A DNA stretch of 64,000 nucleotides from Zunongwangia profunda SM-A87 (lineage in GTDB: Bacteria > Bacteroidota > Bacteroidia > Flavobacteriales > Flavobacteriaceae): NCBI RefSeq assembly GCF_000023465.1, contig NC_014041.1, positions 2,672,001 to 2,736,000 of the forward strand, given 5' to 3'. The position numbers and the translations under genes were made by a program. The notes beneath the pieces were generated by a model. The model saw nothing but the letters and a program-made list of their open reading frames with translations. It was not told where the DNA came from and did not search any database. Position 1 is the first letter of the stretch. Each line of letters opens with the position of its first letter. This document shows, one piece after another, positions 6,348 to 26,465 of the stretch.

Positions 6348-6355
6348 GAATACTA

Positions 6356-6385
6356 GCCGGTAGCCATTTGCTGCCGGCATTTTTA
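6356..6385 (+). terminator. Hairpin with T-tract between the binding lipoprotein and GH2 genes
   Basis: GCCGGTAGC (6356-6364) pairs with GCTGCCGGC (6370-6378) across a short loop, with one G-T wobble, and is followed by ATTTTTAT. It would terminate, fully or in part, between the transport/binding genes and the enzyme genes, giving more SusCD than enzyme. Confidence 0.7.
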
Positions 6386-6395
6386 TACATCACCC

Positions 6396-8897: not shown

Positions 8898-8913
8898 ATA
8901 ACAACCATAAATA

Positions 8914-9119
8914 TGAAAAAGAAAGCATTCATATTCACAGTACTCGATAGATGTTCCAAAGCAGGGGACTAAAAATTAGGTGAGAAATTAAAGATTTTAA
9001 GCAATGCTGAGCCAGAACCTAAAAAACAATATCAATTGATATTATGGGAAAGCATTAGATGAATATTCCTATTCGGAGGAAAGGTTTTTTCTTCTTTGAA
9101 TGCAGAAAACTATAAATAA
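8914..9119 (+). pseudogene. Possible short gene relic between GH2 and GH31
   Basis: The gap begins with a gene-like start (MKKKAFIFTVLD at 8914) that stops after 19 codons. Later fragments in shifted frames (GEKLKILSNAEPEPKKQYQL; FLFGGKVFSSLNAENYK) look like coding sequence with several frameshifts and stops. I do not recognise the parent family. It may instead be a long leader. Confidence 0.3.
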
Positions 9120-9121
9120 AG

Positions 9122-11533
9122 ATGAACAGCTATATGACAAAACTAAAAACACTACAGATTGTTTTCGCTATTTTGGGCATAAGTAGCTTTTGGACTATAA
9201 AGGCACAAATTCAAAATAGCCAAACTCTAAATGAACCTATCAATATTAGTAAAGATTTCGAGAATTATGAAAACACATTTTACTTTGCCGATGAACTTGT
9301 TTCTTTTAATCCTGAGACAGGTCAGGGCGCACTAAAATACAAGCGTTACGAATATCAAACCCGGCAAGCATTTAACAATATGTTAATGAAACCTGATCGT
9401 GTGCCTGCTAATGAATTTCCAGCTACGGAATATGCTGAATCTCCTGAGCTTCCTTTTCAAATTCAGTTTGTTTCGGATAGAACGGTACGCATAAAAATGA
9501 TATCGGGACCGCAATTCAATCAGCCAAAGGAATCATTAATGCTTGTTGAAGGAACTGCTCCCAATCATCCCGAATTATGGAATTATACGGCTATTGATGG
9601 AGGACATCAGTTCAGCAGTGATCATGGTAAGGTAGAGATCATCTCTAATCCATGGCACGTAAATATTTATGACGAAAATGGTAAGCTTCTTACAAGTACT
9701 TTACATTATTCCGATGTTCAGAACACCTATACTCCGGTACTTCCATTTTCTTATGTAAGGCGAAATAGTGATTATTCCCGAAGCTTTAGCCCAGTTTTTA
9801 GTTTACAACCTGGTGAAAAGATATTTGGTTGTGGAGAATCCTTTACGCAATTCAATAAAAGAGGTCAAAAAGTAGTCTTGTATACAGATGATGCCAATGG
9901 CGTTCAAAATGAAACGATGTATAAACCCATTCCTTTTTTTATGAGTAACCGTGGTTATGGTGTATTTATGCATACTTCTTCACCGATTACTGTAGATTTT
10001 GGAAAGTATTTTAATGCTGCAAACAAGATGATGCTTGGCGATGATGTTGCCGATCTATTTTTCTTTTTGGGAGACCCCAAAGATATTTTAGATGAATATA
10101 CCAATTTAACAGGGAAAGCGGCAATGCCACCGCTTTGGTCATTTGGATTTTGGATGAGTAGAATTACCTATTTTTCTGAAAAAGAAGGGCGTGAAATCGC
10201 TAAGAATTTACGGGATTATAAGATACCTAGTGATGTTATCCATTTTGATACCGGTTGGTTTGAAGTAGATTGGAGAAACAATTACGAATTTGCAAAAGAT
10301 CGTTTTGATGATCCCGTAGGAATGATGGCCGATATGAAAGAAGAAGGTTTTCATGTAAGCCTTTGGCAATTGCCTTATTTTACGCCTAAAAACACCCTTT
10401 TTAATGAGATCGTTGACAATGGCTATGCCGTAAAAGACCGCAAAGGAAATATTCCTTTTGAAGATGCCGTGCTAGATTTTTCCAATCCAGAAACGGTAGA
10501 ATGGTATCAGGGGAAACTTAAACACTTATTAGATCAGGGAGTAGGAGTTTTTAAAGTAGATTTTGGCGAAGCAGCACCTTATAACGGAATTTACCATTCT
10601 GGAAGAACAGGCTTCTACGAGCATAATTTATTCCCATTGCGTTATAATAAAGCTGTTGCTGAAATTACACAAAAAGAAAAGGGCTACACTTTAATTTGGG
10701 CAAGAAGCACCTGGGCGGGTAGCCAGCGTTATCCTTTGCATTGGGGCGGTGATGCAGCAACTACCAATACAGCAATGTCTGCTACATTACGCGGAGGATT
10801 ATCTTTAGGACTTAGTGGTTTTAGTTTTTGGAGCCATGATGTTGGAGGTTTTGTAACTAAATCTCCAGAAAATATTTATAGAAGATGGACTCCTTTTGGA
10901 ATGCTTTCCTCTCATGTTAGAAGCCATGGGGAACCACCAACAGAACCCTGGGAATATAGTAAGGAATTCTTAAAAGGCTTTAGAAAAGCCGATAATATGA
11001 GGTATGAATTGATGCCCTATATCTACGCACAAGCCAAAGAAAGTTCAGAAAAGGGATTACCAATGATGCGCGCCCTGTTCGTAGAATTCCCTGATGATAA
11101 AGGCTCCTGGCTAATCGATGATGAATATCTCTTTGGAGAAAATATGCTTGTAGTCCCGTTATTTGAAGAATCGAATGCACGAGAAGTTTACTTGCCGGAA
11201 GGAACGTGGATAGACTATCAAACGCATAAAGTATACGAAAAGGGTTGGCATACCATCGAAGCAGGTGAAATTCCTATTATCGCTTTAATTAAAAACGGTA
11301 GTGTGATACCGCATATTAAATTGGCCCAGTCTACTCGAGATATGGATTGGACACAACTGGAACTTCAGGTATTTGCAGACTCCAATGCGAAAACCGCCAG
11401 TGGAAAGATTTACCTTCCTGAAGGAGAAAAAATTGAGAATATATCAGTTAAAAAACACGGAAAAGATTTTCAGCTTGATGGCAATCCACTAAAGGGAAAA
11501 ACGAGTTTTAAAATTGAAACTGCGGGAAGATAA
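9122..11533 (+). CDS. GH31 alpha-glycosidase, alpha-xylosidase (YicI-like) type
   Basis: An 803-residue family 31 enzyme with a cleavable signal peptide (ends near TIKAQ, residue 29). An N-terminal beta-sandwich is followed by a TIM barrel: VIHFDTGWFEVDW, then SLWQLPYFTPKN, the nucleophile Asp480 in FKVDFGE, the acid/base Asp544 in HWGGDA, and GLSGFSFWSHDVGGF. The KVDFGE and HWGGD segments closely match the E. coli YicI alpha-xylosidase branch rather than maltase-type members, so alpha-xylosidase is the favoured activity; alpha-galactosidase or alpha-glucosidase remain possible. Periplasmic location fits cleavage of oligosaccharides brought in by SusCD. Translation could also start at Met5. 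Confidence 0.9.
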   Translation: MNSYMTKLKTLQIVFAILGISSFWTIKAQIQNSQTLNEPINISKDFENYENTFYFADELVSFNPETGQGALKYKRYEYQTRQAFNNMLMKPDRVPANEFPATEYAESPELPFQIQFVSDRTVRIKMISGPQFNQPKESLMLVEGTAPNHPELWNYTAIDGGHQFSSDHGKVEIISNPWHVNIYDENGKLLTSTLHYSDVQNTYTPVLPFSYVRRNSDYSRSFSPVFSLQPGEKIFGCGESFTQFNKRGQKVVLYTDDANGVQNETMYKPIPFFMSNRGYGVFMHTSSPITVDFGKYFNAANKMMLGDDVADLFFFLGDPKDILDEYTNLTGKAAMPPLWSFGFWMSRITYFSEKEGREIAKNLRDYKIPSDVIHFDTGWFEVDWRNNYEFAKDRFDDPVGMMADMKEEGFHVSLWQLPYFTPKNTLFNEIVDNGYAVKDRKGNIPFEDAVLDFSNPETVEWYQGKLKHLLDQGVGVFKVDFGEAAPYNGIYHSGRTGFYEHNLFPLRYNKAVAEITQKEKGYTLIWARSTWAGSQRYPLHWGGDAATTNTAMSATLRGGLSLGLSGFSFWSHDVGGFVTKSPENIYRRWTPFGMLSSHVRSHGEPPTEPWEYSKEFLKGFRKADNMRYELMPYIYAQAKESSEKGLPMMRALFVEFPDDKGSWLIDDEYLFGENMLVVPLFEESNAREVYLPEGTWIDYQTHKVYEKGWHTIEAGEIPIIALIKNGSVIPHIKLAQSTRDMDWTQLELQVFADSNAKTASGKIYLPEGEKIENISVKKHGKDFQLDGNPLKGKTSFKIETAGR

Positions 11534-11556
11534 AATTGAACTTCAAATTATGGAAT

Positions 11557-11584
11557 TTCGGAATCCTTTCTTTTGGATTCCGAA
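11557..11584 (+). repeat. Intergenic hairpin between GH31 and GH97
   Basis: TTCGGAATCC (11557-11566) and GGATTCCGAA (11575-11584) are perfect inverted arms around an 8-base loop. There is no T-tract, so it is more likely an mRNA-stabilising or processing structure than an intrinsic terminator. Confidence 0.6.
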
Positions 11585-11614
11585 TCGCTTCGAATTATAA
11601 ATAAACTTTAAATT

Positions 11615-13621
11615 ATGTATAAGAAAATACCCCTTTTAGTAGCTATGCAACTGCTAATTTTAAGCTGTGCTTCTGAAAAAGAATCTGAATCCTATACCTT
11701 AAGCTCCCCTGAAGGAAAAAATAGTATTCAATTTGATATGAACGGAGGTTCCCCACACTATTCCGTAAATCATGGAGCGATCAAAGTCATTTTACCATCG
11801 AGTATGGGTTTTGTTTTTAAAGATCAGGATAGTCTTCAAAACGGATTGGAAGTAATTAATGTTGAAGAATCATCTGAAGACACTACCTGGGAGCAGGTTT
11901 GGGGAGAAAAAAAAGAGATCAGGAATAACTATAATCAGCTTACAGTTCATTTAAAAGAAAAAGCCAATAAAGAACGAAAGTTGGATATCCAATTTAGAGC
12001 TTTCGATGATGGGATCGCTTTTAGGTATGTATTTCCCGAACAGGGGATTAAGGATAGTATTTTTATAATGGACGAGCTTACTACATTTAATCTGGCAGAG
12101 GATGGTAAAGCCTGGTGGATACCAGCGTATGATGAGCAACGTTATGAAAATCTTTTCACTGCTTCTCCCGTTAGTACTTTAGATACTGTTCATACTCCTT
12201 TAACTGTTGAAAGCAATAATGGTTTAGCGATAAGTTTTCACGAAGCTAATCTAGCAGACTTCGCAAGTACAACTTTAGCGCACACCCAGGGGACCAGTTT
12301 AAAAACAGATTTAGTGCCTTGGGCAGATGGTGTAAAAGTTCGAACCGTCGACAATTTTATTACACCCTGGCGAACATTACAAATAGCGGATCACCCTACA
12401 GAATTGATCACCTCCTATCTTATATTAAATCTTAATGAGCCAAATACGATCAAAGATACCAGCTGGATCAAGACATTTAAGTATTTAGGTATTTGGTGGG
12501 GAATGCATATCGGAAAATACACTTTTTGGGAAGGAGATAAACAAGGAGCAACCACAAAAAATGCTCGAAAATATATTGATTATACTAAGGAATTAGGGAT
12601 AGATTATTTATTGATCGAAGGTTGGAATAAGGGGTGGACACCCGCATGGTACGAAAATGCTATGCATCAATTCAGCTTTACGGAAGAAGCTGATAATTTT
12701 AGTCTAAAAGCGGTTACAGATTATGCTGCTGAAAATGATGTTGAAATCGTAGGATATCATGAAACTGGTTCTAATCTTCATAATTATTTGAAACAAATAG
12801 ATTCTGCTTTTGCACTTTATAAAGAGCGAGGAATCAATACAGTGAAAATTGGACAAGTAGGTGCCAAATTAAATATGAAAGAATGGCACCATGGCCAATT
12901 TGGTGTAAATTATTATAGGTATGTCGTAAAAAAAGCTGCAGAATATGGTTTGGAAATATATTTCCATGAACCCATCAAAGATACTGGTGAGCGTAGAACA
13001 TATCCTAATATGATGGCCAGAGAAGGAGCAAGAGGCCAGGAGTATAATGCCTGGAGCGAAGGAAATCCTCCAGCTTATACAGCAACTTTACCTTTTACCA
13101 GATTACTGGCAGGACCAATGGATTTCACACCAGCGGTATTTGATGTGGAGGTAAAAGAAGGGTATCCTGGTAGAAGAGTTCATAGTACCACGGCGAAACA
13201 ACTTGCTTTAATGGTAGTACTTTATTCTCCTTTACAAATGCTGGCAGATCTCCCTGAAAATTATATAGACAAACCAGCATTTCAATTTCTAAAAGATGTA
13301 CCGACGGATTGGGAAGATACCAAGGTACTAAATGGAGAAATAGGAAAATATATTACTACAGTAAGAAAGGATATCGATAGTAACGACTGGTATCTGGGTA
13401 CCATTACCAATGAGAAAGCGAGAGATCTGAATATTCAGTTAGACTTTTTAGATCGTGATGCAACATATGAAGCTCAAATTTATGCAGATGCTCCAGGAAC
13501 TGGTCATCAAAATAACCCCACAGCTGTTACTATTTATACAAAAGAAGTTACCGCCGCAGATTCCCTCAGTCTTTTATTAGGAGAAAGCGGAGGAGCTGCC
13601 GTGAGATTCAAAAAATTATAA
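11615..13621 (+). CDS. GH97 alpha-glucosidase-type enzyme (inverting subgroup), lipoprotein
   Basis: A 668-residue family 97 enzyme with a lipoprotein signal (Cys18 in LILSC). The N-terminal beta-super-sandwich (SSPEGKNSIQFDM) precedes a TIM barrel and a C-terminal beta-sheet domain. Four acidic residues, Glu383 (YHETGS), Glu452 (FHEPIK), Glu470 (AREGARG) and Glu476 (GQEY), keep the spacing of the SusB residues Glu439, Glu508, Glu526 and Glu532, which bind calcium and catalyse inverting hydrolysis. This sets it apart from the retaining alpha-galactosidase branch of GH97, which uses an Asp nucleophile. It should release alpha-linked glucose in the periplasm. It is the last intact gene of the PUL. 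Confidence 0.9.
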   Translation: MYKKIPLLVAMQLLILSCASEKESESYTLSSPEGKNSIQFDMNGGSPHYSVNHGAIKVILPSSMGFVFKDQDSLQNGLEVINVEESSEDTTWEQVWGEKKEIRNNYNQLTVHLKEKANKERKLDIQFRAFDDGIAFRYVFPEQGIKDSIFIMDELTTFNLAEDGKAWWIPAYDEQRYENLFTASPVSTLDTVHTPLTVESNNGLAISFHEANLADFASTTLAHTQGTSLKTDLVPWADGVKVRTVDNFITPWRTLQIADHPTELITSYLILNLNEPNTIKDTSWIKTFKYLGIWWGMHIGKYTFWEGDKQGATTKNARKYIDYTKELGIDYLLIEGWNKGWTPAWYENAMHQFSFTEEADNFSLKAVTDYAAENDVEIVGYHETGSNLHNYLKQIDSAFALYKERGINTVKIGQVGAKLNMKEWHHGQFGVNYYRYVVKKAAEYGLEIYFHEPIKDTGERRTYPNMMAREGARGQEYNAWSEGNPPAYTATLPFTRLLAGPMDFTPAVFDVEVKEGYPGRRVHSTTAKQLALMVVLYSPLQMLADLPENYIDKPAFQFLKDVPTDWEDTKVLNGEIGKYITTVRKDIDSNDWYLGTITNEKARDLNIQLDFLDRDATYEAQIYADAPGTGHQNNPTAVTIYTKEVTAADSLSLLLGESGGAAVRFKKL

Positions 13622-13630
13622 ATAAAGTTT

Positions 13631-14440
13631 ATGCAATGGATTAGTATTCAAATATTCTTCCTTGTTTCTGCTGTTCAGCTTAATCATGCGCAGCATACCA
13701 ATGGGTAATCATTTAAATCTAATGAATTATCTGAAAGAAAACGTATCGATAATTTATTGGAGATAATGACATTGGAAGAAAAGGTAAGAGCCTTGAGTAA
13801 TAATCCGGAAGTATCTTGTTTTGTCGCCAAGTGAACAGTTCATGTAGAAGGTCTCCATGAGCTTGCTCTTGGGATCCGGCAGAATAGGGAAGAAAGGACA
13901 AGCAGCTATTACCTATAACTATACTTCCGCAGGCTTATGGACTTGACTAAACCTGGAATATTAATTTATTAGAGCGAGTAGCAAAAGTAGAGAGGGTAAA
14001 GAAGCAAGGTTTGCAAAACAATATTTTAATCGTGGTGCTTTAGTCGTAAGAGCGCCAAATGCCGATCTTGCTAGGGATTCAAGATGGGGAAGCACTGAAG
14101 AAAGTTTTGGGGAAGATCCATTTCTAACAGGATCCTTAAATGTGCATTCGCAAAAGGTTTACAGTATGAAAAGAATGGATATTGGCAAACAGCTTCATTC
14201 ATGAAACATTTTTTGGTGAATTCTAATGAAGATGGAAGAACCTATGTGTCCACGTTTAACCGTTTTATTAGATAATCATAAGTCGGTTTATAAGCTCTTT
14301 TTAATAAGATCAAAAAATCAGAAAGACCGCTCCGTAGCAATAAAAGTCGATGTAAGATGGTCTCTAGTTAAAATGAATACAGGGGGACAGAGTCTATGGT
14401 CATTGGATTAATGTCTCACATGTTGAATTGAGTTTTTATT
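13631..14440 (+). pseudogene. GH3 beta-glucosidase pseudogene
   Basis: An intact start and signal peptide (MQWISIQIFF ... NHAQ) run into a stop at codon 26. Family 3 landmarks then follow in broken frames: RIDNLLEIMTLEEKVRAL (about 13748-13798), NRGALVVRAPNADLARDS with RWGSTEESFGEDPFLTGS (about 14029-14133), LQYEKNGYWQTASFMKHFLV and NSNEDGRTYVS (about 14160-14255), and a final NEYRG-like piece. There are many stops and frameshifts, internal segments are missing, and the catalytic C-terminal half is absent. It was the beta-glucosidase of the upstream PUL and cannot be functional. The 61-codon open stretch at 14226-14411 is part of this wreck, not a gene. Confidence 0.9.
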
Positions 14441-14454
14441 TTTTATTAAACAAA

Positions 14455-15420
14455 TTAAAAAATACTAAAACGATGTTTTACATTAGTTTTACTGAATGCT
14501 ATAGCTGCAGCTCCTAAACTGCCGGCAATATTTCCAAGTTGGGCTCCAACAATTTCTGTATGTTTTCCACAATCGGGCATCATATTTTTGAATGCTGTTT
14601 TTTTTATCATTTCTATATAAAACTGGCCTGCATCAGAAATTCCACCGCCAATTATAATTTTTTGAGGAGCAAAAGTATTAATGAAAGAAGCCACACCATG
14701 GCCTAAATATTCCGTATGTTCTTCAATGCATTGAATAGCAAAATCATTATTTTGTTTGAATTTTTTTACAACGTAAAAACCATCGATATTATCTTCTTTA
14801 TCTCCTGATAATTCCATATAACGTTTCACCAGTACCGAGGTAGAAGCATATGCTTCCAGGCAGCCTTTACCTCCACAGTTACAATCAATGCCATTATGTT
14901 CTACTACAATATGCCCTAATTCACCCCCTCTACTTTTATAACCATTATATATAGCGCCATTAATAATTATAGCTCCACCAATTCCGGTACCTATGGTTAG
15001 ACAAATAACATCACTACAACCTCTGGCAGCTCCATAATGTAATTCACCATATCCCATTAAGTTAGCATCATTATCCACACTTACAGGTAGCTTAAAACGT
15101 GTATAGAAATATCCAGCCAGATCGATATTCTCCCAGCCTTGAAGGTTATCTGCAGCACCTATCACTACGCCTTGAAAAACGATCCCAGGAGTACCAATTC
15201 CAATACCTACTACTTCTAATTTTTTTTCAAAAGCTTCAAAAAGGGTTGTTTGAATAATTTGCTCGATGGTATCTAAAATAATATTCTTTGATGCTTCTGT
15301 TCCAATTGGTAGCATATGAGTAAATCGAATGGCCCCTGTTTCGCAAACTAATGCTGATTTAACGAAAGTGCCCCCTAAATCGATTCCAACAGCATACTTA
15401 AAATTTTCTATAATACTCAT
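14455..15420 (-). CDS. ROK-family sugar kinase
   Basis: A 321-residue cytoplasmic protein with the phosphate-binding GIDLGGTFVKSALV motif at the N-terminus, the catalytic Asp in VDNDAN, the GTGIGGAIIINGAIYNG phosphate-2 region, and the ROK zinc site (GHIVVEHNGIDCNCGGKGCLEAYAS). ROK kinases phosphorylate glucose, N-acetylglucosamine, N-acetylmannosamine, allose or related sugars at the 6-hydroxyl using ATP. It is the last gene of a minus-strand operon, 4 bases after the dehydrogenase gene. In that setting it is the likely entry step that phosphorylates the sugar released by the upstream GH2. Exact sugar not determinable. Confidence 0.92.
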   Translation of the reverse strand: MSIIENFKYAVGIDLGGTFVKSALVCETGAIRFTHMLPIGTEASKNIILDTIEQIIQTTLFEAFEKKLEVVGIGIGTPGIVFQGVVIGAADNLQGWENIDLAGYFYTRFKLPVSVDNDANLMGYGELHYGAARGCSDVICLTIGTGIGGAIIINGAIYNGYKSRGGELGHIVVEHNGIDCNCGGKGCLEAYASTSVLVKRYMELSGDKEDNIDGFYVVKKFKQNNDFAIQCIEEHTEYLGHGVASFINTFAPQKIIIGGGISDAGQFYIEMIKKTAFKNMMPDCGKHTEIVGAQLGNIAGSLGAAAIAFSKTNVKHRFSIF

Positions 15421-15424
15421 TTGT

Positions 15425-16429
15425 TTATAAGTTTATTACCGTACTTTTTTTTGCTGATGCATAAGCAGCATCGATGACCTGAAGGCTAACCAAACCTTCT
15501 TTTAAACCTGGTGAAGGCTGTTTTCTTTGTTTTATACAATCTATAAAATAATCCATTTGACGATCGTATAGTACTTGATCACAATGTTCCGTTTTGGCGG
15601 AGAATTTCGGATGTATTTGTTTAGAGTCTGCTGCATTTTTGAACTTTAAGAATGTAGGAAATAAGTTAGCATAGCCTTTGGTTCCAAAAATTCCACAACT
15701 AGCCTCGGGTCCGTCCCGGTGCGGTTGCCACCAACCGCTCTCAATTAGACTGTCAGTGCCATTATCCCAGGTAATTAATACTATGCCGGTGTCATCAACG
15801 TCATAATCGCCAAAATTACTTGCTATTTTTGCAAAAACCTGTACGGGATTAGGATCACCTAGTATATATCTTATAGTGTCAATTGCATGAATGCCCATAT
15901 CAGCTAAAGCACCACCACCAGCAAGGTCTTTTTTCAGGAACCAGCCGGATGGCCCCCAATTTTCATGAATACCATAACCTTTGGTTTTAAATATTCTCCC
16001 CAATTTTTCTTCTTTTATAGTTTTCCGAAGAAAGTTAACTTCGTCGTCAAAGCGCCACATATGTCCCACCATTACCAATTGATTTGTTTTTTTTGCGGTT
16101 AAGGAAATCTTTTTTGCTTCTTCGGTATTTAAAGCCATGGGTTTTTCTATAAATACATCTTTATTGTTTTTTAGAAGATCAATGGCATATGAAGCATGAA
16201 GAAAATTAGGAGTGCTAATAATAACTCCATGAACGTTTACATCTGCAATAATAGGAGAAATAGAAGAATATGCCTTTTCTATATTGTATTTTTTAGCAAA
16301 CTTTCTGGCATTATTCAACTGCCTGGAAACAACGGCTACAATGTCTACCTCCGGTAATTTTTTTAGTCCGAGGATATGGTAATTGGCTATATATCCAGTA
16401 CCTATAAGAGCTATTTTTATTTTTTTCAT
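15425..16429 (-). CDS. Gfo/Idh/MocA-family sugar dehydrogenase
   Basis: A 334-residue NAD(P)-dependent oxidoreductase with an N-terminal Rossmann fold (LIGTGYIANYH at about 9-18) and the EKP motif (IEKPMAL, Lys96) that carries the catalytic lysine, followed by the GFO_IDH_MocA C-terminal beta-sheet domain with GGGALADMGIHAIDTIRYI, including the usual D-x-x-x-H active-site pair. The family oxidises or reduces sugar hydroxyls, often at C3 (for example the glucose-6-phosphate 3-dehydrogenase NtdC) or in inositols. It sits between an aminotransferase and a kinase gene, which suggests that it makes or consumes a keto-sugar used by the aminotransferase. Confidence 0.92.
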   Translation of the reverse strand: MKKIKIALIGTGYIANYHILGLKKLPEVDIVAVVSRQLNNARKFAKKYNIEKAYSSISPIIADVNVHGVIISTPNFLHASYAIDLLKNNKDVFIEKPMALNTEEAKKISLTAKKTNQLVMVGHMWRFDDEVNFLRKTIKEEKLGRIFKTKGYGIHENWGPSGWFLKKDLAGGGALADMGIHAIDTIRYILGDPNPVQVFAKIASNFGDYDVDDTGIVLITWDNGTDSLIESGWWQPHRDGPEASCGIFGTKGYANLFPTFLKFKNAADSKQIHPKFSAKTEHCDQVLYDRQMDYFIDCIKQRKQPSPGLKEGLVSLQVIDAAYASAKKSTVINL

Positions 16430-16466
16430 CTTCAGGTTATTGTTGAAATATTCTCAATCCTATTTC

Positions 16467-17804
16467 CTATAAATTCCCAAGAAAGTGATTATATAAATGG
16501 ATTTTTTCAGCTTTATTTTCACTATTTAATTCCTTAGAAGAGTAATATATTTTTTTTATTGCTTTGGCGATAGTGTCCATATCTTCTTTGGTTCCCATTA
16601 AAACTTTATGATGAATGCATACTGATTGATCTTTAAATATACGTTCACATATAGGTAATGAAAATCTTTTAGGGTCGATAGCTCTCCAATACGATTCGTT
16701 TAAATTATATCTTGCTGGCTTTGTGTGCGGAACGTATAAAGAACAATTATTTAGTGGCTCGTAGCTAGCGTCTACAGCAATTCCTAACTCAGCTTCTAAG
16801 GCTTTTCGAAATGTTTTGACTGGTAAGCCATTAAAATCATCCTTACTATACTTAAATGCGAAATTAAAGTATGCTTTTTTAGTTTCTCTTTTGTCGCGGG
16901 TAATAGGAGCTACTCCAGGTATTTCTTCAAGTAGTGCATTTAAATATTTTCCATTAGCATCTCTATTGGCATTTTGTATTGGTAGCCGTTTTAAGCCTTC
17001 AATTAATATAGCAGCCTGGAATTCAGTTATTCTAAGATTACCGGATTGAATGAAATTACCATCGTCATCTCCGTAATCTCCTGCACCTTTATCTACAGCA
17101 TCTAAGGTGCCAGTTACAGGTCTTCTTCCGCAGTTTCTTAGCGCATCTAATTTTTTGGCCAAGACAGCATTATTAGTCGTTACAGAACCACCTTCGCCAG
17201 ATGTTAAATGTTTTGATAATTGATAACTAAAACTTCCGATATCACCAATGCTACCTGCTTTTTTTCCATTCCATTCTCCTCCGTGCTTATGCGCACAATC
17301 TTCAATTACATATAGTTGATATTTTTTTGCAATAGCCATAATGGCATCCATATCTGCAAAAGCTCCGTAGAGATGAACAGGTATTATGGCTTTAGTCCTA
17401 GGTGTTATGGCCTCTTCAATTTTCTTTGGATTAATGCACCAGTTTTCTTCATTTACATCTACTAGTATTGGAGTGGCATTTACATCGATTACCGTTGCTG
17501 CGGTAGCTTGCCATGTCAAGCCTGGAATGATAACTTCGTCACCAAGACCAATACCTAAGGCTTCCAGCGAAATTTGCAAAGTGATCGTCCCATTAACGGT
17601 GCAAATAGCATGATTTACCCCTATAAATTCCGCAAAAAGTTTATTGAATTCCGTTTCTTTTGGCCCATTATACGACCAAATGCCACTATTTAGAACTTCA
17701 ATAAGGGCTATCTCTTCTTCTTTTCCCCACACAGGCCATTTGGGCCAAGGTTGCTTGGTGGTATTTCGGCAGGGAGTTCCTCCGTTAATTGCTAATTTCT
17801 TCAT
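16467..17804 (-). CDS. DegT/DnrJ/EryC1/StrS-family sugar aminotransferase
   Basis: A 445-residue PLP enzyme. The N-terminus (LAINGGTPCR ... WPKWPVW) and overall form match the branch that includes scyllo-inosose and AHBA-type aminotransferases. The PLP-binding lysine is Lys198 in SKHLTSGEGG, and Asp169 in IEDCAH contacts the pyridine nitrogen. The start codon overlaps the end of the upstream GH2 gene by 20 bases, indicating translational coupling. The enzyme moves an amino group between a keto-sugar (or keto-cyclitol) and glutamate or glutamine. In an otherwise catabolic operon it may deaminate an amino-sugar rather than build one. C-terminal residues after about 420 are poorly conserved-looking. 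Confidence 0.92.
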   Translation of the reverse strand: MKKLAINGGTPCRNTTKQPWPKWPVWGKEEEIALIEVLNSGIWSYNGPKETEFNKLFAEFIGVNHAICTVNGTITLQISLEALGIGLGDEVIIPGLTWQATAATVIDVNATPILVDVNEENWCINPKKIEEAITPRTKAIIPVHLYGAFADMDAIMAIAKKYQLYVIEDCAHKHGGEWNGKKAGSIGDIGSFSYQLSKHLTSGEGGSVTTNNAVLAKKLDALRNCGRRPVTGTLDAVDKGAGDYGDDDGNFIQSGNLRITEFQAAILIEGLKRLPIQNANRDANGKYLNALLEEIPGVAPITRDKRETKKAYFNFAFKYSKDDFNGLPVKTFRKALEAELGIAVDASYEPLNNCSLYVPHTKPARYNLNESYWRAIDPKRFSLPICERIFKDQSVCIHHKVLMGTKEDMDTIAKAIKKIYYSSKELNSENKAEKIHLYNHFLGNL

Positions 17805-20382
17805 AATTGACAGTGTTGAAATTCCAAGAATCGATTTTTAGTGCTACAGGTGCATTATGATTGAATTTTCCTTTTAGTATTCTGGATTCGCCTGGAAGTA
17901 GACTTATAAAATTATCTTCCCAATAAATTGGAAGAATAGGGGTTCCGTGCTTTTTATCTTGTAATTTAAGATTTATAAGAAAGGCAATTAATCGTTCAGG
18001 GTTTATTATCTTCACCATTATTTCTTGATAATTTTCAACTTCTATTATTTGATAATGTACCGTAAGATCTCCCTTTTCTAAACTATTGAGCAGGTAAAAA
18101 TCTGAATATATTTTGCTAGGGGTATGAAATGCAAACTCTCCTAAATTTGTCTCATAGTCTAATTCTTCTTCTTTAGTAGACAGCCAATAAAAATTTATAT
18201 CTATTTCTATATCGCGTTCGTCCATGATACGTAAATCCAAGAAATAGGTCGTAGAAATATTTTCCAGATATCCAAGATCATATATGGGAATGGAGGTATC
18301 TGCTGTAATTTCAAATTCAATTCTATGATCTAAATATTCTTTCGATGTAATATCATAAATACGGATTCTAGCCTTTAAATTTTTAATGGTATTCAAGTGA
18401 TCGTTTACTGCATAAATTTTATAATCTCCATAATTGTAAATAAGATGTAGTGGAGCACAGGCCTTTTGGGTGGCGTAGAATGCTGCTGTAGGCATAAGAT
18501 AATAATCATATAATTGCCAATACATTTTTGGCCATGCCGCATTTAACATCCATTGAATAATTCCGGTTGATTTTTCTTTATTGACTTGAAAAGCTTCAAA
18601 CATGGGGCGCATTAATTCGTAATTCATGACTTGCGCTTTTTGATTGAATTCATAAAGATTTAGAGGATTTCCATATCTTTCTTTGATTGCGGTTTTAAAA
18701 CGGTTAAGATTGGCAAACTCATAGCGTCCACAATGGTAATTCCATACTTTACTTATGGGCCAAAGCTGATCTTCCGGAATAAATTTCTTTAAGCTTTCTA
18801 ATTGTGGTATTTGAGCACCGGTTCCGGTTTCGGTATTAAATCCATAAGAACCACCAAAACGAGTATCAGTAAACCAATAAATGGGAGCCGTGTAATCATA
18901 AGGACCTAGCATTTTAACACCGGAAGAACCACTAATTTCGCTAATTATATCTTCTGAACCTATAACATGCTGATCGCTTCCCACTCCTCCGGTTGAATTT
19001 AGATAAGGACGGGTTGGATCGTATTTCTTAAAAGTGTCAATATATTTTTGCTCTAATTGATTGATAGGTACTTTGTCACTTGCGACTGTCCAAACAAATA
19101 TACTAGGATGGTTACGCAACCAAATAACCTGATCTTCCCAAGCTTGTGCTACTTGCTCAATGTCGTGTGGCTTATAAACACCACCAAAACGTTCGTTTAC
19201 AGGTACACCCATATGAATTTCATGTTCCCAGTGACAACTCCAACCAACCATCATTAAAATTCCAAGTTCATCGCATAGATCATATAACTTTTGATTTTTA
19301 CCCCAAATTCCCTCTAAACGAATAGTATTCAAATTCATTTGTTTCACATAGTTAAGCTGTGCTTCTATGGTAGAATCAGTATCCATTAGCAAAAGGTCAT
19401 CAGTCCAGCCAGCCCCTTTAATTAGAACTTTCTTACCATTAATCTTATAACCGCGGTGAATATCGTTTAGCCAAAAGTCTTCAATTTGTCGAACGCCAAA
19501 TTGAATATTGGTAGAATCGGTTATTTCTTTCTCAACTTCAAAATGAAGATTTAGCGTGTACAGATGTGGATTACCTAAATGAAATGGCCACCAAAGTTTT
19601 GGATTTCGTAATTTTAACTGGGGATAAATGGTAGGATCAAATTCAATAGTTATAGAAGAATTGACTGGTATCTTTACTTTTTTATTAAATTCTATATCTC
19701 CTATTTGTCCAACTAAGCTACCCGAAATAGTTTTGTTAGTGGTATTTTCTAACTGCGCGGAAACGGTAAGTTCTGCAGAGGTGAAATTATTTAAATCTAT
19801 AGAGGATTGTACAAAGGGACGATTAATTTTTATGCCTTTATATAAATGTAGTTTAACCGGCCTAAATATCCCCATGTTGCCATCTGGTGGAGCTGGGTTC
19901 CAATCCACAAAACCAGTACTAAAATCCCCTGGTTTTGGAGGTATAACTTCTATGGCTAACAGATTCTCACCGGTTTTTACAGCATCACTTATAGTTAATG
20001 ATGTTATGCGGAATGCACCATTTATCACTTTACTATCGGCAATCAAATTCCCATTTAACCAAACATTTGCTTTATAATTTATACCTTCAAATTCTAAGCA
20101 GGCATCTAAGGCAGATTTATCATCGGCAATAGTAAAGCAGGTTGTATACCACCATGGAGCTTTAAACTTTTCCGGAGGAATATTTTTTAAGTTTTCCCCA
20201 AAATAAGGATCTTTATAGATCTGATTGAGTACAAGAGTGCCTAGAACAGTAGAAGGAACTTGAGCGGGTATCCAATCGCTTGTAGTATTAGATTTTAACG
20301 AAAGCTCATAACCAGTTTGCGAAACTTTTTCAGATGATTGAATTTTCCAATTATCTTTTAATTCAATTTTTAGATGCTTCAT
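17785..20382 (-). CDS. GH2 glycosidase of the exo-beta-D-glucosaminidase type, cytoplasmic
   Basis: An 865-residue family 2 enzyme: jelly roll (about 35-185), Ig-like domain, TIM barrel (about 310-650) and C-terminal beta domains. The usual GH2 Asn-Glu acid/base motif is replaced by Ser435-Asp436 in VWTVASDKVP, as in the exo-beta-D-glucosaminidases (CsxA type, acid/base Asp469). The nucleophile is Glu518 in FNTETG, and WMLNAAWPKMYWQLYDYYL also matches that subfamily. There is no signal peptide: MKHLKIELKDNW begins 7 bases after the preceding gene, so the protein should be cytoplasmic, unlike secreted CsxA. It would cleave an imported amino-sugar glycoside. Substrate is an inference; beta-mannosidase is the main alternative. 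Confidence 0.9.
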   Translation of the reverse strand: MKHLKIELKDNWKIQSSEKVSQTGYELSLKSNTTSDWIPAQVPSTVLGTLVLNQIYKDPYFGENLKNIPPEKFKAPWWYTTCFTIADDKSALDACLEFEGINYKANVWLNGNLIADSKVINGAFRITSLTISDAVKTGENLLAIEVIPPKPGDFSTGFVDWNPAPPDGNMGIFRPVKLHLYKGIKINRPFVQSSIDLNNFTSAELTVSAQLENTTNKTISGSLVGQIGDIEFNKKVKIPVNSSITIEFDPTIYPQLKLRNPKLWWPFHLGNPHLYTLNLHFEVEKEITDSTNIQFGVRQIEDFWLNDIHRGYKINGKKVLIKGAGWTDDLLLMDTDSTIEAQLNYVKQMNLNTIRLEGIWGKNQKLYDLCDELGILMMVGWSCHWEHEIHMGVPVNERFGGVYKPHDIEQVAQAWEDQVIWLRNHPSIFVWTVASDKVPINQLEQKYIDTFKKYDPTRPYLNSTGGVGSDQHVIGSEDIISEISGSSGVKMLGPYDYTAPIYWFTDTRFGGSYGFNTETGTGAQIPQLESLKKFIPEDQLWPISKVWNYHCGRYEFANLNRFKTAIKERYGNPLNLYEFNQKAQVMNYELMRPMFEAFQVNKEKSTGIIQWMLNAAWPKMYWQLYDYYLMPTAAFYATQKACAPLHLIYNYGDYKIYAVNDHLNTIKNLKARIRIYDITSKEYLDHRIEFEITADTSIPIYDLGYLENISTTYFLDLRIMDERDIEIDINFYWLSTKEEELDYETNLGEFAFHTPSKIYSDFYLLNSLEKGDLTVHYQIIEVENYQEIMVKIINPERLIAFLINLKLQDKKHGTPILPIYWEDNFISLLPGESRILKGKFNHNAPVALKIDSWNFNTVNYEEISN

Positions 20383-20389
20383 CTGTTCG

Positions 20390-20632
20390 CTATTTGTTAT
20401 CGTTAGTTTTATTTAGCTTCAACTTATGTATGTTGATTTTAGCTTTCCACATCATACCACCACCAATAGTCATTAGAAGTAATCCTGCCACCATATCTGT
20501 CATGTGTTCTATAAAAGTTTCCGTAAAAATCATTGCGAAAAGTATGATGATCCCAAAACTTAGAATGAAAAAACCTAGCGCATTGTTAATTTGTGCTGCT
20601 TTGATTTTTGCATTCACTTCATTTTCTTTCAT
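20390..20632 (-). CDS. Small two-helix membrane protein
   Basis: An 80-residue protein with a charged N-terminus (MKENEVNAKIKAAQINNAL), two hydrophobic segments (about 20-39 and 44-62) and a Lys-rich tail. I do not recognise a named family. It lies 18 bases after another tiny membrane protein gene and 7 bases before the GH2 gene, inside an operon headed by a sodium/solute symporter. An accessory or assembly role for the symporter is possible but unproven. Normal codon use and tight spacing support it as a real gene. Confidence 0.75.
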   Translation of the reverse strand: MKENEVNAKIKAAQINNALGFFILSFGIIILFAMIFTETFIEHMTDMVAGLLLMTIGGGMMWKAKINIHKLKLNKTNDNK

Positions 20633-20650
20633 ATTTCCTTTATTTTCTAA

Positions 20651-20866
20651 TTAAAAGTGACTGTAGATCATGGACAAAATAAGTAGTACAGCAATCGACC
20701 ATATTTTTAAGTTATTCCACCAGTGACGATGTTCTTCAGGAACTCCCTGGTAGATATACTCATTAGGTAATAGTAGTACCAAAAATCCTATAACTGCATA
20801 TAAAGCAAGAAATATAATCTTAGCCGTTTCCTGAGATATGCCCGATAGCCAATCAAAATTGAACAT
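20651..20866 (-). CDS. Small two-helix membrane protein next to the symporter
   Basis: A 71-residue protein with two hydrophobic segments (IIFLALYAVIGFLVLLL and IWSIAVLLILSMIY) separated by a polar, Trp-containing loop (EEHRHWWNNLKIW). It starts one base after the symporter stop codon, so the two are almost certainly translated together. No family name is recognised. It may be a small subunit of the transporter. Confidence 0.75.
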   Translation of the reverse strand: MFNFDWLSGISQETAKIIFLALYAVIGFLVLLLPNEYIYQGVPEEHRHWWNNLKIWSIAVLLILSMIYSHF

Positions 20867-20867
20867 A

Positions 20868-22376
20868 TTATAGTGTTTTATTTTTCAACAAAATTTTAGA
20901 ACTAAACACTAGACCACGTAGCTCCTTCTCGGAATGTTTTTTGGTTGTCAAACTAACGATTACATTTATAATTGAAGCTAATAGAAACGACCACCATGAA
21001 ATGTAAAGAAAAGGATCTTCTATAGTGAAATAATTCTCCTTGAAAACATTCAAATAGACAGCGAATCCTATTCCGATTAATAAAGAAGATAGACCACCCC
21101 ATTGCGTTGTTCTGTTCCAGAATATACCCAAAAGAAGAATAGCAAATAAGGGCCCCTGAAAATAAGACATGAATGTTTGAATCGCCACATAGATGCCGGG
21201 AAAATCGCTACTAATTGGTGAAGTAGCTACACCTACAAACAATAAGACAAGCGTGGTAATTTGTCCCACTTTTAAATAATGCTTATCATCTGCTCCCTTT
21301 TTAATAAATGGTTCATAGATGTCTTTAGTAAATAATGTAGCTGTAGAATTTAATAAGGAATCTACACTGGACATTAATCCCGCAAAAAATGCAGCGAACA
21401 TAAGACCAATCAAACCTGGAGGAAGTATAGATTTTATCATCATTGGTAGTGCCTGGTCACCATCCGATAATTCTGGATGAACTACAACAGCCATTAATCC
21501 CGGAAATAAAACCAATATTGGAATAAACATTTTAAGTGCAGAGCCAAAAATCATACTCGCCTTTGCATGCCATTCATTTTTAGCAGTCAGGCAACGTTGT
21601 ACGATAGATTGGTTACCAATCATATATGCATTAGCCATAACAAATGTCAGTCCAAATAAAATCCCTGTCCACGGAAAAGGAGAGTTTGTGTCTTGCGGTT
21701 GGATGATATCAAAGTGGCTTTGATATTCTGGTCCCATAGCACCTATTTTTTCAACCATGCTGTCCCAGCCTCCAACTTTATAAAGACTTAAGAATACAAG
21801 AGCAAATCCCCCTATGAACATAATAATGAACTGTACAACATCAGTCATTATTACTGCCGTAATTCCGCCAAAATAAGTGTATAGACCAACCACTCCGGCA
21901 GTCGAAATAATAGAAATCCAGATTGGCCAACCCATAAGTACATTTAGTAGTACGGCACTTGCCCAAAATAAAACACCTAAATCTAAAGCAAAGAACAAAA
22001 TCCAGGTGATAGAGGCAATAGTCCGTACCGATTTATTGTATCGTCTACCTAGATATTCTGGTATTGTATACATCCCGCCACGCCAGAAATAAGGTATAAA
22101 AATAAAAGCAGCCAATAGCATAGCGGGTACAGATCCTACCCAATCAAAATTTCCAACAGAAATTCCGTATCGATAGGCCTGTCCAGACACTCCCACAAAA
22201 TCGAGAGCTCCAATATCTGAAACGACAATAGACATGCCAATAGCCCAAAAAGGAAGACTTTTACCTCCAAGAAAATAATCTTCTGAGCTATTAACGAATT
22301 TTTTAAAATAGAGTCCTAATAACAGCATTCCTACGATGTAGGCTATGACTATAAAATAGTCTATTCCTAAGAGCAT
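20868..22376 (-). CDS. Sodium/solute symporter (SSS/SGLT family)
   Basis: A 502-residue inner-membrane protein with 13-14 hydrophobic helices. The SSS signature regions are visible: SSEDYFLGGKSLPFWAIG near the N-terminus, YTIPEYLGRRYNKSVR, TYFGGITAVIMTDVVQF, and FAAFFAGLMSSVDSLLNS, with the conserved Ser-Ser-x-Asp of the sodium site. The family co-transports sugars, sugar acids or amino acids with sodium. It is the first gene of the operon that ends with the sugar kinase, and it probably imports the periplasmic product of the divergent SusC/D system. An inverted repeat lies about 50 bases upstream. Confidence 0.94.
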   Translation of the reverse strand: MLLGIDYFIVIAYIVGMLLLGLYFKKFVNSSEDYFLGGKSLPFWAIGMSIVVSDIGALDFVGVSGQAYRYGISVGNFDWVGSVPAMLLAAFIFIPYFWRGGMYTIPEYLGRRYNKSVRTIASITWILFFALDLGVLFWASAVLLNVLMGWPIWISIISTAGVVGLYTYFGGITAVIMTDVVQFIIMFIGGFALVFLSLYKVGGWDSMVEKIGAMGPEYQSHFDIIQPQDTNSPFPWTGILFGLTFVMANAYMIGNQSIVQRCLTAKNEWHAKASMIFGSALKMFIPILVLFPGLMAVVVHPELSDGDQALPMMIKSILPPGLIGLMFAAFFAGLMSSVDSLLNSTATLFTKDIYEPFIKKGADDKHYLKVGQITTLVLLFVGVATSPISSDFPGIYVAIQTFMSYFQGPLFAILLLGIFWNRTTQWGGLSSLLIGIGFAVYLNVFKENYFTIEDPFLYISWWSFLLASIINVIVSLTTKKHSEKELRGLVFSSKILLKNKTL

Positions 22377-23105: not shown

Positions 23106-26100
23106 ATGAAAAAAAGAAAAATAAATGTGTTGTTACTTATTATTTTCAGCATGTTTGTTGCCAATATGGTAGCCCAACAAGAGGTTACCGGTACCGTTAA
23201 AAGTGATGACGGCCTTTTGTTACCTGGGGTATCTGTGGTATTAAAAGGAACAAAAAAAGGGGTATCTACCGATTTTGATGGAAACTATAGTATTCAAGTA
23301 CCAACTAGTAATGCTACCCTTGTTTTTTCCTATACGGGAATGATCACACAAGAAATGCTTGTGGGTGATAAAAAGGTCATTGATGTAATTTTAAAGACTT
23401 CTTCTGAACAATTAAATGAAGTAGTGGTAACCGCATTGGGTATTTCCAGAGAGAAAAAATCTCTTGGTTATTCAGTAGCCGAGTTCGATGGTGATGATCT
23501 AACGACGGTAACGCAAGAGAATGCTTTAAATGGCTTAAATGGAAGAGTGGCAGGAGTACAAATTAATTCAACAGGAGGTACAGGGTCTACGGTTAGTGTG
23601 ATCCTTCGTGGGGCTTCTTCCTTAACCACAGATAACCAACCCTTATATATTATTGATGGTGTTCCGCTTACTAGTGGACTTACTAATATTGGGAGCACAG
23701 GTAGTGGTGTTGCTGTAGACTATGGTGGTGGGATTAGTGATATTAACCCAGATGATATAGCAAATGTATCGGTATTGAAAGGTCCCAGTGCCGCAGCCCT
23801 TTATGGATCTAGAGGAGCTAATGGGGTTATTATGATCACCACAAAATCAGGTAAAAAAGCTAAAGGCCTAGGGATTTCATTTACCTCCAGTAATGTCTTC
23901 GAAACTCCATATAAATTTTTGGAAAAGAGTATGCGCTTTGCAAATGGTAGTAGACCCGATCCAAGTATTACTCAGATCGATGAAACCTCCTCAGGTTGGG
24001 TAGGCCCGGAATTGGATAAAGGTTTAAGTGCTATTCAGTGGCCCTATTCCGAAGAAGAAATTGAAAGTGGCATAGGAGTGGCTAAACCATTAATTTCTAG
24101 AGGATCAAATAATGCAAAGAATTTTTTTGAGACTGCATATACCTTAACAAATACTATTGCTGTAGAAAATAATTCTGATAGGATGAATTACCGTATGTCT
24201 TATACAAATATGAGAAACGAAGGTTTTATTCCCAATTCAGATTTAAAACGTAATAATTTTGGTATAAACAGTACTTTCGATATCAACGATCAGCTTAAGC
24301 TAACCGCAAGCCTGAAGTATTCCATTTCCGAGGCTGATAATAGACCATCAACTACAGATAGAAATGCGAATCCTTTGCAAGCCATTTACGATATTAATCC
24401 TCACATTGATATTCGAGATATGAGAGATTATTGGCTAGTAGAAGGTCAAACTCAGAATGCTCCGTATAATTTAGGGAATAGCCCATCTGATTTCGAATAC
24501 AACAATCCTTATTTCTTGGCTTATGAAATAAATAACGGTTTCAAAAGAAAAAGATTGATAGGGAATATTCAGGCAGATTATCGATTTACAGATAAGATTT
24601 CTTTGATGGCTCGATTTACATATAATGACTCTAACGAAGATCGAGAAACAAGAATATCAAGTGGTTTTAATAGAGAAATGAATGGAGCATACGGCATACA
24701 AAACCTTACAGGGGTAGAGAGTAATGCTGATTTCTTATTGTCCTACAGTGATAAATTAAGTAAAGATATTGATTTTACACTATCTGGTGGTGGTAATACA
24801 AGAAATGTGGATAATAGTTTTGTATCTACCCAAACAAAAAATGGAGGTTCTGGTTTAATTGTTCCCAACTTGTTTTTATTATCAAACATTGCTGCTGATA
24901 ATATCGATTATACAGAAAGAATATCAAAAGAACGGGTTAATAGTTTGTATGCTTTAGGGAATATAGGATATAAAGATATGATTTACATAGACGCAAGCGT
25001 TAGAAATGATTGGTCTAGTACACTACCTGAAAATGACAATAGTTTTTTATATCCATCTGTTTCTACGAGTATCCTAGCCAACAAAATTTTTAATATGGGA
25101 ACCAACGTGTCTTTATTTAAATTACGTGTAGGTTGGGCACAGGCAGGTAACGATACAAGTCCTTATAATTTATATGCGATACTCAGCAATAATGGGGATT
25201 GGGGAGCAGCATCTCAATTGGCAGTAAGTCAAGCTTTAAAAAATGACAAAATTAAGGCAGAGTTAAATACTTCTACAGAGTATGGGATTGATTTATCACT
25301 TTTTAGGAATCGTCTTACTATGGATTTTACTTATTATGAGTCGAATAATGAAAATCAAATATTTCAAAAATCATTACCAATTTCATCGGGCGCTACGAGT
25401 AAACTCTTTAACGCAGGAAACTTAAATAGTAAAGGTTATGAAGCTAGTTTAGGTGGAACGGTAATAGATGGAGAAAATCTTCGTTGGAATATGAATTTAA
25501 CCTTTACCACCAATAAAACAATTATAACAAAACTCGCAGAGGGTACCGATTATGTTAATTTCTGGAGTGAGGCCAAGGGAGGTGCCTATACATGGGTAGG
25601 GGAAGAAGTTGGCCAGATTGTAGATAGAAAATTGGTTAGAGTAGAAGATGAGAATTCTCCGTATTACGGATGGCCACTTTTGGATGATGAAGGTTGGGAA
25701 AATAGTGATCGAACATTATCTGATGAAAATGGCAATAGAGTAGCTCCTGTAATTGGTAATTATAATCCAGATTTTAAAATGGGACTACAAACCTCTATTC
25801 AATACAAAAATTGGAATCTATCTATGAACTTTGATTGGAGAAATGGAGGACAATTCGTTTCGCAGACTCATAGATATAGTGAATCAGATCTGCAGACCAC
25901 ACGATGGCTAAATAAGGTTCATAATTTAAGTAATGTAGGAGATATTCCTACCTATATTAAAAACAATGCCGATAAATTTTTATCTCCAAATGGCGAATTT
26001 TATCCACTCGTTGGAGGCCCAACTGCGGAAGATGGAGGTTTTCCTATCGATGGCCTAAATGATGGTGTATTTTTACCAGGAGTTATAGGGAAATATGATG

Positions 26101-26465
26101 AAAACGGAAATTTTATTGCAGAACAAGAAAATATCGGTGGTCCCGGAACTCAATATCATACTTACGGAGACAATTACCCTTGGGATTTTACAAGAGCCTC
26201 TACCTTTGATGCCGATTATGTAAAGCTTAGACAAATTTCCATTAGTTATAGTTTCCCTAGAGCAATAGCAGAAAAAGTGTCAATGCGTAATTTATCACTC
26301 TCCTTATTTAGCCGAAATATCATTTTATGGACTAAAGCGGGTATTAATATTGACCCTGAATCAGCGTTTCAATATTCTGGAGGAAACCTTTCTCAAGGGG
26401 TTGAAAGGTATAATATTCAACCCTGGGCAATTCCAGTTGGTTTTAAATTAAATGCAAGTTTTTAA
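23106..26465 (+). CDS. SusC/RagA-type TonB-dependent outer-membrane transporter (second PUL)
   Basis: A 1119-residue protein with signal peptide (ends near NMVAQ, residue 23), a carboxypeptidase-regulatory-like domain with GVSTDFDGNYSI, a plug beginning at about 100 (LNEVVVTALGISREKKSLGYS) with the IIDGVPL and VLKGPSAAALYGSRGANGVIMI motifs, and a long barrel ending in F. It is larger than the first SusC of the window and belongs to a different branch: the VTALGI motif and the SLGYS insert are common in SusC proteins paired with SusD_2-type partners. The susD gene follows after 15 bases. The divergent metabolic operon indicates an amino-sugar-containing glycan as the probable cargo. Confidence 0.96.
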   Translation: MKKRKINVLLLIIFSMFVANMVAQQEVTGTVKSDDGLLLPGVSVVLKGTKKGVSTDFDGNYSIQVPTSNATLVFSYTGMITQEMLVGDKKVIDVILKTSSEQLNEVVVTALGISREKKSLGYSVAEFDGDDLTTVTQENALNGLNGRVAGVQINSTGGTGSTVSVILRGASSLTTDNQPLYIIDGVPLTSGLTNIGSTGSGVAVDYGGGISDINPDDIANVSVLKGPSAAALYGSRGANGVIMITTKSGKKAKGLGISFTSSNVFETPYKFLEKSMRFANGSRPDPSITQIDETSSGWVGPELDKGLSAIQWPYSEEEIESGIGVAKPLISRGSNNAKNFFETAYTLTNTIAVENNSDRMNYRMSYTNMRNEGFIPNSDLKRNNFGINSTFDINDQLKLTASLKYSISEADNRPSTTDRNANPLQAIYDINPHIDIRDMRDYWLVEGQTQNAPYNLGNSPSDFEYNNPYFLAYEINNGFKRKRLIGNIQADYRFTDKISLMARFTYNDSNEDRETRISSGFNREMNGAYGIQNLTGVESNADFLLSYSDKLSKDIDFTLSGGGNTRNVDNSFVSTQTKNGGSGLIVPNLFLLSNIAADNIDYTERISKERVNSLYALGNIGYKDMIYIDASVRNDWSSTLPENDNSFLYPSVSTSILANKIFNMGTNVSLFKLRVGWAQAGNDTSPYNLYAILSNNGDWGAASQLAVSQALKNDKIKAELNTSTEYGIDLSLFRNRLTMDFTYYESNNENQIFQKSLPISSGATSKLFNAGNLNSKGYEASLGGTVIDGENLRWNMNLTFTTNKTIITKLAEGTDYVNFWSEAKGGAYTWVGEEVGQIVDRKLVRVEDENSPYYGWPLLDDEGWENSDRTLSDENGNRVAPVIGNYNPDFKMGLQTSIQYKNWNLSMNFDWRNGGQFVSQTHRYSESDLQTTRWLNKVHNLSNVGDIPTYIKNNADKFLSPNGEFYPLVGGPTAEDGGFPIDGLNDGVFLPGVIGKYDENGNFIAEQENIGGPGTQYHTYGDNYPWDFTRASTFDADYVKLRQISISYSFPRAIAEKVSMRNLSLSLFSRNIILWTKAGINIDPESAFQYSGGNLSQGVERYNIQPWAIPVGFKLNASF

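Follow-up and report, generated by a model that had tools for sequence, protein, structure and literature searches.

Several described systems come close to one or other part of the operon reported here. RifL, RifK and RifM form kanosamine from UDP-glucose and RifN phosphorylates kanosamine, according to the available account of these enzymes (PMC8788734). On the glycosidase side, the GH2_16 subfamily is marked by a Ser-Asp pair replacing Asn-Glu and by a Glu replacing the usual His (PMC12243196), and in CsxA Glu394 contacts the C2 amine of the sugar and Asp469 is the acid/base (PMC6566704), whereas among sodium-coupled transporters six residues of vSGLT are described as holding galactose (PMC13099297). 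We analysed a stretch of 64,000 nucleotides from Zunongwangia profunda SM-A87 (contig NC_014041.1, positions 2,672,001 to 2,736,000; hereafter the window), in which an operon at 14455–22376 encodes an importer, a GH2 glycosidase, a DegT aminotransferase and a Gfo/Idh/MocA oxidoreductase. For this gene set we favour, on balance, a route in which a glycoside is imported and hydrolysed, the freed amino sugar is transaminated and the product is reduced.

All seven genes of the operon lie on the minus strand with intergenic gaps of 37 bp or less and a 20 bp overlap between GH2 and DegT, and both open reading frames and Pfam matches bear out the coordinates and families given in an earlier first-pass annotation of the window. 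From its upstream end, the operon consists of an SSS (SGLT-type) sodium/sugar symporter (20868–22376; Pfam SSF, 7.9e-79), the predicted importer of an amino-sugar glycoside; two small open reading frames whose products look by eye like membrane proteins, TM71 (20651–20866, 71 amino acids) and TM80 (20390–20632, 80 amino acids), both of which, from their position, are probably accessory to the symporter; a CsxA-like GH2 glycosidase with an Ig_GlcNase domain and no exported-type N-terminus (17785–20382); a DegT/DnrJ/EryC1 aminotransferase of the pyridoxal phosphate (PLP)-dependent type, assigned from Pfam, bit scores and a tree and predicted to remove the amine (16467–17804); a Gfo/Idh/MocA oxidoreductase, assigned by Pfam and predicted to be a keto-sugar reductase (15425–16429); and a ROK sugar kinase (14455–15420; Pfam ROK, 3.9e-66), an optional member of the set. 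TM71 had no Pfam match and TM80 only a sub-threshold one. None of the seven proteins scored over the cut-off of an NCBIfam equivalog, the sole row over cut-off being a superfamily model for the symporter. On the opposite strand, starting about 730 bp upstream of the operon, is a divergent SusC-type outer-membrane protein (23106–26465, +), identified from its open reading frame by resemblance and probably working in the same uptake system, together with its partner, a SusD-like lipoprotein (26481–28169, +; Pfam SusD-like_2).

A DegT protein search of GTDB genomes gave 63 named loci, which with four further genomes of the window's family and the window itself made 68 loci for analysis. Across these, DegT was called in 67, GH2 in 60, Gfo in 53, SSS in 30, TM80 in 25 (its window copy going uncounted, as a longer overlapping frame was kept), ROK in 24 and TM71 in 22. 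Since many contigs are cut short, we counted over the 37 DegT loci, the window excluded, in which the contig extends 8 kb or more to either side of DegT. The first-pass annotation had named co-occurrence of these gene types in other Bacteroidota as a check, and co-occurrence was borne out for GH2 (36/37), Gfo (31/37) and a transporter (31/37, with SSS in 20 and MFS in 11), but for ROK in only 14. GH2, Gfo and a transporter all stood beside DegT in 28 of the 37 loci, and ROK joined them in 13. SusD was present in 18, and a HAD gene in nine, counted as two clusters found anywhere in the locus and not only beside Gfo; ROK and HAD never co-occurred.

We also compared the 44 module loci of at least 15 kb (of 67 outside the window) with 40 random 20-kb stretches from two module-bearing genomes: a GH2-type query matched 43/44 and 0/40 respectively. 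The DegT distance matrix correlated with those of GH2 (0.79), Gfo (0.91), SSS (0.86) and ROK (0.85), the other pairs giving 0.73 to 0.85, although shared species history contributes to these values. From the co-occurrence counts, the random-stretch control and the distance correlations a chance neighbourhood was rejected, and the gene set is a conserved module. As a conserved association of importer, GH2, DegT and Gfo, it supports the earlier proposal that the operon serves amino-sugar glycoside catabolism. Most of its hosts are Bacteroidota, a small number of records bear the names Planctomycetota, Phycisphaerae, Calditrichaeota and Chlorobiota, and its distribution is patchy: DegT was found in five of 149 genomes of the window's family, its own included, and in at least one of 395 in a sample of the phylum, the window's own only, with four candidates scored per row.

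The closest solved relative of the GH2 protein is CsxA, with 460 bits over nearly the full length, as against 116 bits for the next, a beta-mannosidase. For residue checks in this and the other families we took homologues with more than 40% identity and 85% query coverage, and in the 53 GH2 proteins so obtained E357, S435, D436 and E518 are invariant, being the counterparts of CsxA E394, S468, D469 and E541, the last of which we take to be the nucleophile. Both marks of GH2_16 are present throughout, the acid/base mark as S435-D436 and the Glu-for-His mark as E357, whose CsxA counterpart contacts the C2 amine (each 53/53). Since the CsxA signature residues are invariant, the enzyme should accept a glycon with a free C2 amine, and a C2-amino sugar, either glucosamine or 2,3-diamino-glucose, would fit the glycosidase best. 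This C2 rule would be escaped if the sugar were 2,3-diaminated, or if the nearby Glu served a C3 amine.

In addition, NagB scored over cut-off in 10/10 module genomes, and in that of the window its gene lies about 2.4 Mb from the operon, adjoining a second ROK gene. The first-pass annotation had noted that a nagB-type deaminase was absent, which is correct for the operon and wrong for the genome, and had taken this to favour a C3-amino or other non-C2 sugar; that argument is weakened, as the C2-amine residue is kept in 53/53 and NagB is encoded elsewhere. The same residues and the same NagB counts would also suit a more ordinary scheme, in which GH2 frees glucosamine for a kinase and NagB, and DegT and Gfo work on an amino-bearing aglycon. 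We consider this scheme unlikely, given that GH2 stands beside DegT in 36/37 well-flanked loci and that loci with an exported GH2 would presumably need to import both products.

The solved structures nearest to the window symporter are vSGLT (249 bits) and SGLT1. Three of the six galactose contacts of vSGLT are kept and three are changed, and the resulting pocket (D59, D78, G81, N249, K282 and Q400) is invariant in 30/30 module SSS proteins. A two-Asp pocket of this kind is absent from the six other SSS proteins in the examined DNA, and two aspartates would suit a cationic sugar.

The likely site of hydrolysis was assessed by a simple hydrophobicity rule at the N-terminus, with no trained predictor. 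By this rule the full-length GH2 protein is cytosolic-type in 28/28 SSS loci, window included, and exported-type in 15/17 MFS loci, the exceptions being L040, which has SSS too, and L058, whereas DegT is exported-type in none of 66. The sequence of transport and hydrolysis thus seems to be reversed from one architecture to the other with the aminotransferase staying inside, which is the pattern expected if DegT acts on a product of hydrolysis. In the second architecture GH2 would be exported, MFS would bring in the freed sugar and DegT would act in the cytosol.

We then come to the aminotransferase itself, for which the first-pass annotation had assumed kinship with NtdA. The single-sequence search gave 318, 282 and 282 bits to three 2-deoxy-scyllo-inosose aminotransferase chains, the best being 5w70 (which we take to be RbmB), and 176 bits or less to any other solved protein, including 169 bits to a PDB entry named AHBA synthase; NtdA, to which a DegT protein of the NtdABC type would be closest, scored 123 bits. 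With a DegT profile the inosose aminotransferase chains reached 372 to 385 bits and the next group 231 or less. An unrooted tree was built from 19 of the 66 module members, 10 of the 12 paralogues from module-bearing genomes (L117 and L126, a near copy, being omitted), two other DegT proteins of the window genome and two reference chains. In it, support for the module clade was 100/99, and this clade joined the two inosose aminotransferase references at 100/98, as their sister and not nested among them. K198, W98 and Q195 are invariant in 66/66. On the scores, profile and tree we rejected a nucleotide-sugar aminotransferase, and in none of these comparisons did the protein group with surface-polysaccharide enzymes, the outcome that had been named beforehand as counting against a catabolic role.

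Several database entries label this DegT an antibiotic-type inosose aminotransferase, and the DegT profile has at least 2,183 matches at E ≤ 1e-100 among 8,000 scored candidates; because of this labelling, the annotation of many genomes may mislead. Eight of the paralogues (L119, L120, L121, L123, L124, L125, L126 and L127) show by eye a twin-arginine-like export signal, which the L118 DegT is without. Most of these signal-bearing proteins adjoin ceramidase_alk-like proteins, of which Pfam confirmed only those at L120 and, outside this set, at L118. Exported PLP aminotransferase-like proteins are unexpected.

The best NCBIfam match of the Gfo protein is IolG, at 160 bits for the window and 174 for L024 against a cut-off of 355. 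Its active-site residues K96, D177 and H181 are invariant in 52/52. An Asp at the cofactor-selecting position of such enzymes usually selects NAD, and in 47/52 the residue is not Asp, which is compatible with use of NADPH and with a predicted role in reduction. The IolG resemblance, together with the sister position of DegT to the inosose aminotransferases, could also be read as an aminocyclitol route, in which DegT would convert scyllo-inosamine into scyllo-inosose and Gfo would be an inositol dehydrogenase. We hold this to be improbable. IolD scored over cut-off in four of the ten module genomes and IolE in none, four IolE-like proteins of 208 to 216 bits lying near IolD in those four genomes, and the GH2 signature indicates an amino-hexose glycon. 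Neither IolD nor IolE was over cut-off in the window genome, for which an inositol end product was rejected, and the inosamine alternative raised in the earlier annotation is weakened, since no IolD reached the cut-off in six of the ten genomes, that of the window among them. With NagB in 10/10 and IolD and IolE scarce, a hexose or hexosamine product is likelier than an inosose.

The window ROK protein has as its best NCBIfam match ROK_glcA_fam (229.6 bits, under the cut-off of 260), so that it resembles the ROK glucokinases below the model cut-off. We compared 20 of the 35 ROK matches across the ten module genomes, and among these only the window protein itself, that of G129 (66%) and one in the genome of L047 (44%) exceeded 33% identity to it; seven of the ten genomes, including those of L031 and L023, had none above 32% identity among the matches compared. 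Given this scarcity and its presence in 14/37 well-flanked loci, an obligate kinase step was rejected, and ROK fits better as a kinase of the product than as an obligate first step. In addition, the reference inosose aminotransferases presumably act on unphosphorylated cyclitol ketones, and phosphorylation ahead of transamination is therefore not expected.

These results bear directly on the route first proposed for the operon, in which ROK would phosphorylate free kanosamine and enzymes of the NtdA/NtdC type would take kanosamine-6-phosphate to glucose-6-phosphate. A DegT protein, an oxidoreductase and a kinase do form a known set, as in RifL/RifK/RifM/RifN (PMC8788734), and a pyranose C3 ketone would resemble scyllo-inosose. 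However, the kinase counts do not agree with a kinase acting ahead of deamination, the DegT score to NtdA is far from the 318 bits to its best inosose relative, and GH2 retains the C2-amine signature of CsxA; nor did the open-licence literature, as far as it was accessible, yield a paper on kanosamine catabolism. We accordingly give this route a low probability. The general catabolic idea stands, and its phosphorylated kanosamine form does not.

In the reading that we favour, the SGLT-type symporter would import a beta-linked amino-sugar glycoside, from which a cytosolic enzyme of the GH2_16 type, judging by family and residues, would free the amino sugar. DegT, from its clade, would then transaminate the amino sugar in its free, unphosphorylated form, Gfo/Idh/MocA would reduce the resulting keto-sugar to an ordinary hexose, and a hexokinase (ROK where present, or another encoded elsewhere) would phosphorylate it. 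The amine may be removed at C2, at C3 or at both. More tentatively, the module may represent a non-phosphorylative route, with the free amino-hexose of an unrecognized environmental glycoside converted into plain hexose by an inosose-type transaminase together with a reductase. If so, amino sugars would be used here without recourse to the usual kinase and to deamination by NagB, and the module would point to an environmental beta-amino-glycoside not linked to such genes in the open-licence literature searched. In the accessible parts of that literature, covering kanosamine, inosose aminotransferases, DegT/glucosaminidase/Gfo, GDPD loci, 3-amino-3-deoxy sugars and rhizopine, we found no such pathway.

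A number of points weigh against this reading. Gfo is absent from 6/37 well-flanked loci; L071 (Phycisphaerae), the sole well-flanked locus without GH2, has DegT with neither GH2, Gfo nor SSS; and the planctomycete loci L070 and L072 carry GH2 and SSS on the strand opposite DegT. Nine full-length GH2 loci have neither SSS nor MFS, three of them being exported-type and six cytosolic-type, and 2/52 Gfo proteins scored as exported-type. The references and paralogues stand on long branches of a DegT tree that is unrooted, and the matching of SGLT residues comes from one pairwise alignment. DegT could instead act on the aglycon, and the pairing of a C2-amine glycosidase with a transaminase, despite NagB in 10/10 genomes, is not explained by the reading alone. 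Finally, for the module members we infer all of the reaction steps and their direction.

The genes around the module were assessed in the same comparison of 44 loci with 40 random stretches, in which the p-values are optimistic because the loci are related and the queries, drawn from module loci or the window, favour the module side. GDPD was found in 15/44 loci, GH3 in 11, BNR in nine, GH92 in seven, GSU2086 and PfkB-HAD genes in six each, purple acid phosphatase in five, GmhA-like genes and an unnamed propeller-containing family in three each and ceramidase-like genes in two, all against 0/40 random stretches. SusD homologues (21/44 vs 1/40) and MFS (14/44 vs 1/40) were also enriched, and SusC homologues (20/44 vs 10/40) were a weak indicator alone; the window SusC shares one cluster with SusC-like neighbours, a cluster that covers 21 loci with the window counted, SusC being called by resemblance. 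One cluster, c1, mixed GDPD with the unnamed family through one fusion protein, and the comparison used separate queries for the two.

In the window itself, the GDPD and phosphatase genes lie downstream of SusD and beyond the 20-kb frame: a purple acid phosphatase (32810–34249, +), two GDPD genes (34364–35224, +, and 36083–36913, −) and a second metallophosphatase (37609–39432, +). In a number of related operons a GDPD gene sits between DegT and Gfo. These neighbours suggest a phosphodiester-bearing source such as a lipid or an envelope glycan. The boldest candidate substrate is the 2,3-diamino-glucose of bacterial lipid A, which may be what the module takes; this version calls for a C2-amine glycosidase and also for a step that takes off a C3 amine. 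The phosphodiesterase and phosphatase genes that recur nearby would be in keeping with it, as would the GmhA/HldE-like genes of some loci. The last are seen at L034 (13706–18298) and likewise at L040, L068 and L080, where varying subsets of GSU2086, HldE-like PfkB/HAD, ROK and GmhA-like genes stand beside the module, hinting at metabolism of heptose or another sugar phosphate.

The neighbours also bear on whether DegT and Gfo might instead be biosynthetic, supplying a surface glycan or an antibiotic with its amino sugar or aminocyclitol. The closest solved relatives of DegT are named as biosynthetic-type enzymes, and a HAD gene, the family to which NtdB belongs, occurs somewhere in nine of the 37 well-flanked loci. 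Nevertheless, the constant association of DegT and Gfo with an amine-type glycosidase and a sugar importer, the recurrence of GH92, GH3 and SusD in the numbers given above, and the lack of any nucleotide-sugar or glycosyltransferase gene among the scanned neighbour representatives make a biosynthetic or modifying role very improbable.

Other features of the window were noted. At 29039–31268 (−) a gene of the unnamed family is apparently split into two overlapping frames, with partial propeller similarity to sensor kinases; relatives adjoin GH2/DegT elsewhere, and those of L078 and P0142 form fusions with GDPD. Apart from the divergent L045, the scanned intact, non-fused relatives had no Pfam match over cut-off, and the family has at least 2,979 matches at E ≤ 1e-30 among 7,999 scored candidates. 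Next to the ROK gene, broken frames at 13622–14454 (+) look GH3-like by eye, and a tblastn search with one GH3 relative gave no match there. Beyond these lies a separate glycan-use cluster (789–13621, +) with SusD, GH2, GH31 and GH97, which begins with a frame of 1034 amino acids that is SusC-like by size and place only (789–3893, +).

Taken against the known systems, the module symporter has Asn260, Lys294 and Gln428 in common with vSGLT and, unlike it, has Asp, Asp and Gly in place of Gln69, Glu88 and Ser91, a replacement fixed in 30/30. Module GH2 resembles CsxA over nearly its full length and shares the Ser-Asp acid/base motif, the C2-amine Glu and the nucleophile Glu; it differs in its cytosolic type where an SSS is present and in its association with a transaminase and a reductase, its activity being a prediction from sequence. 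The Rif enzymes, likened to the module by description and not by sequence, provide an aminotransferase, an oxidoreductase, a phosphatase and a kanosamine kinase, but they are biosynthetic and UDP-sugar based, and the available account names no sugar importer or glycosidase (PMC8788734). The NtdABC/KabABC kanosamine operon likewise has Gfo and DegT, and some module loci have a HAD gene; however, module DegT is distant from NtdA in score, open reading frames and Pfam revealed no HAD phosphatase in the window operon, and the predicted direction is opposite. Closest of all to the aminotransferase are the 2-deoxy-scyllo-inosose aminotransferases (BtrR, 2c7t/5w71, and 5w70), which form its sister clade and share its PLP Lys, Trp and Gln, but whereas those enzymes belong to antibiotic clusters, module DegT stands beside an importer and a glycosidase, in a catabolic context.

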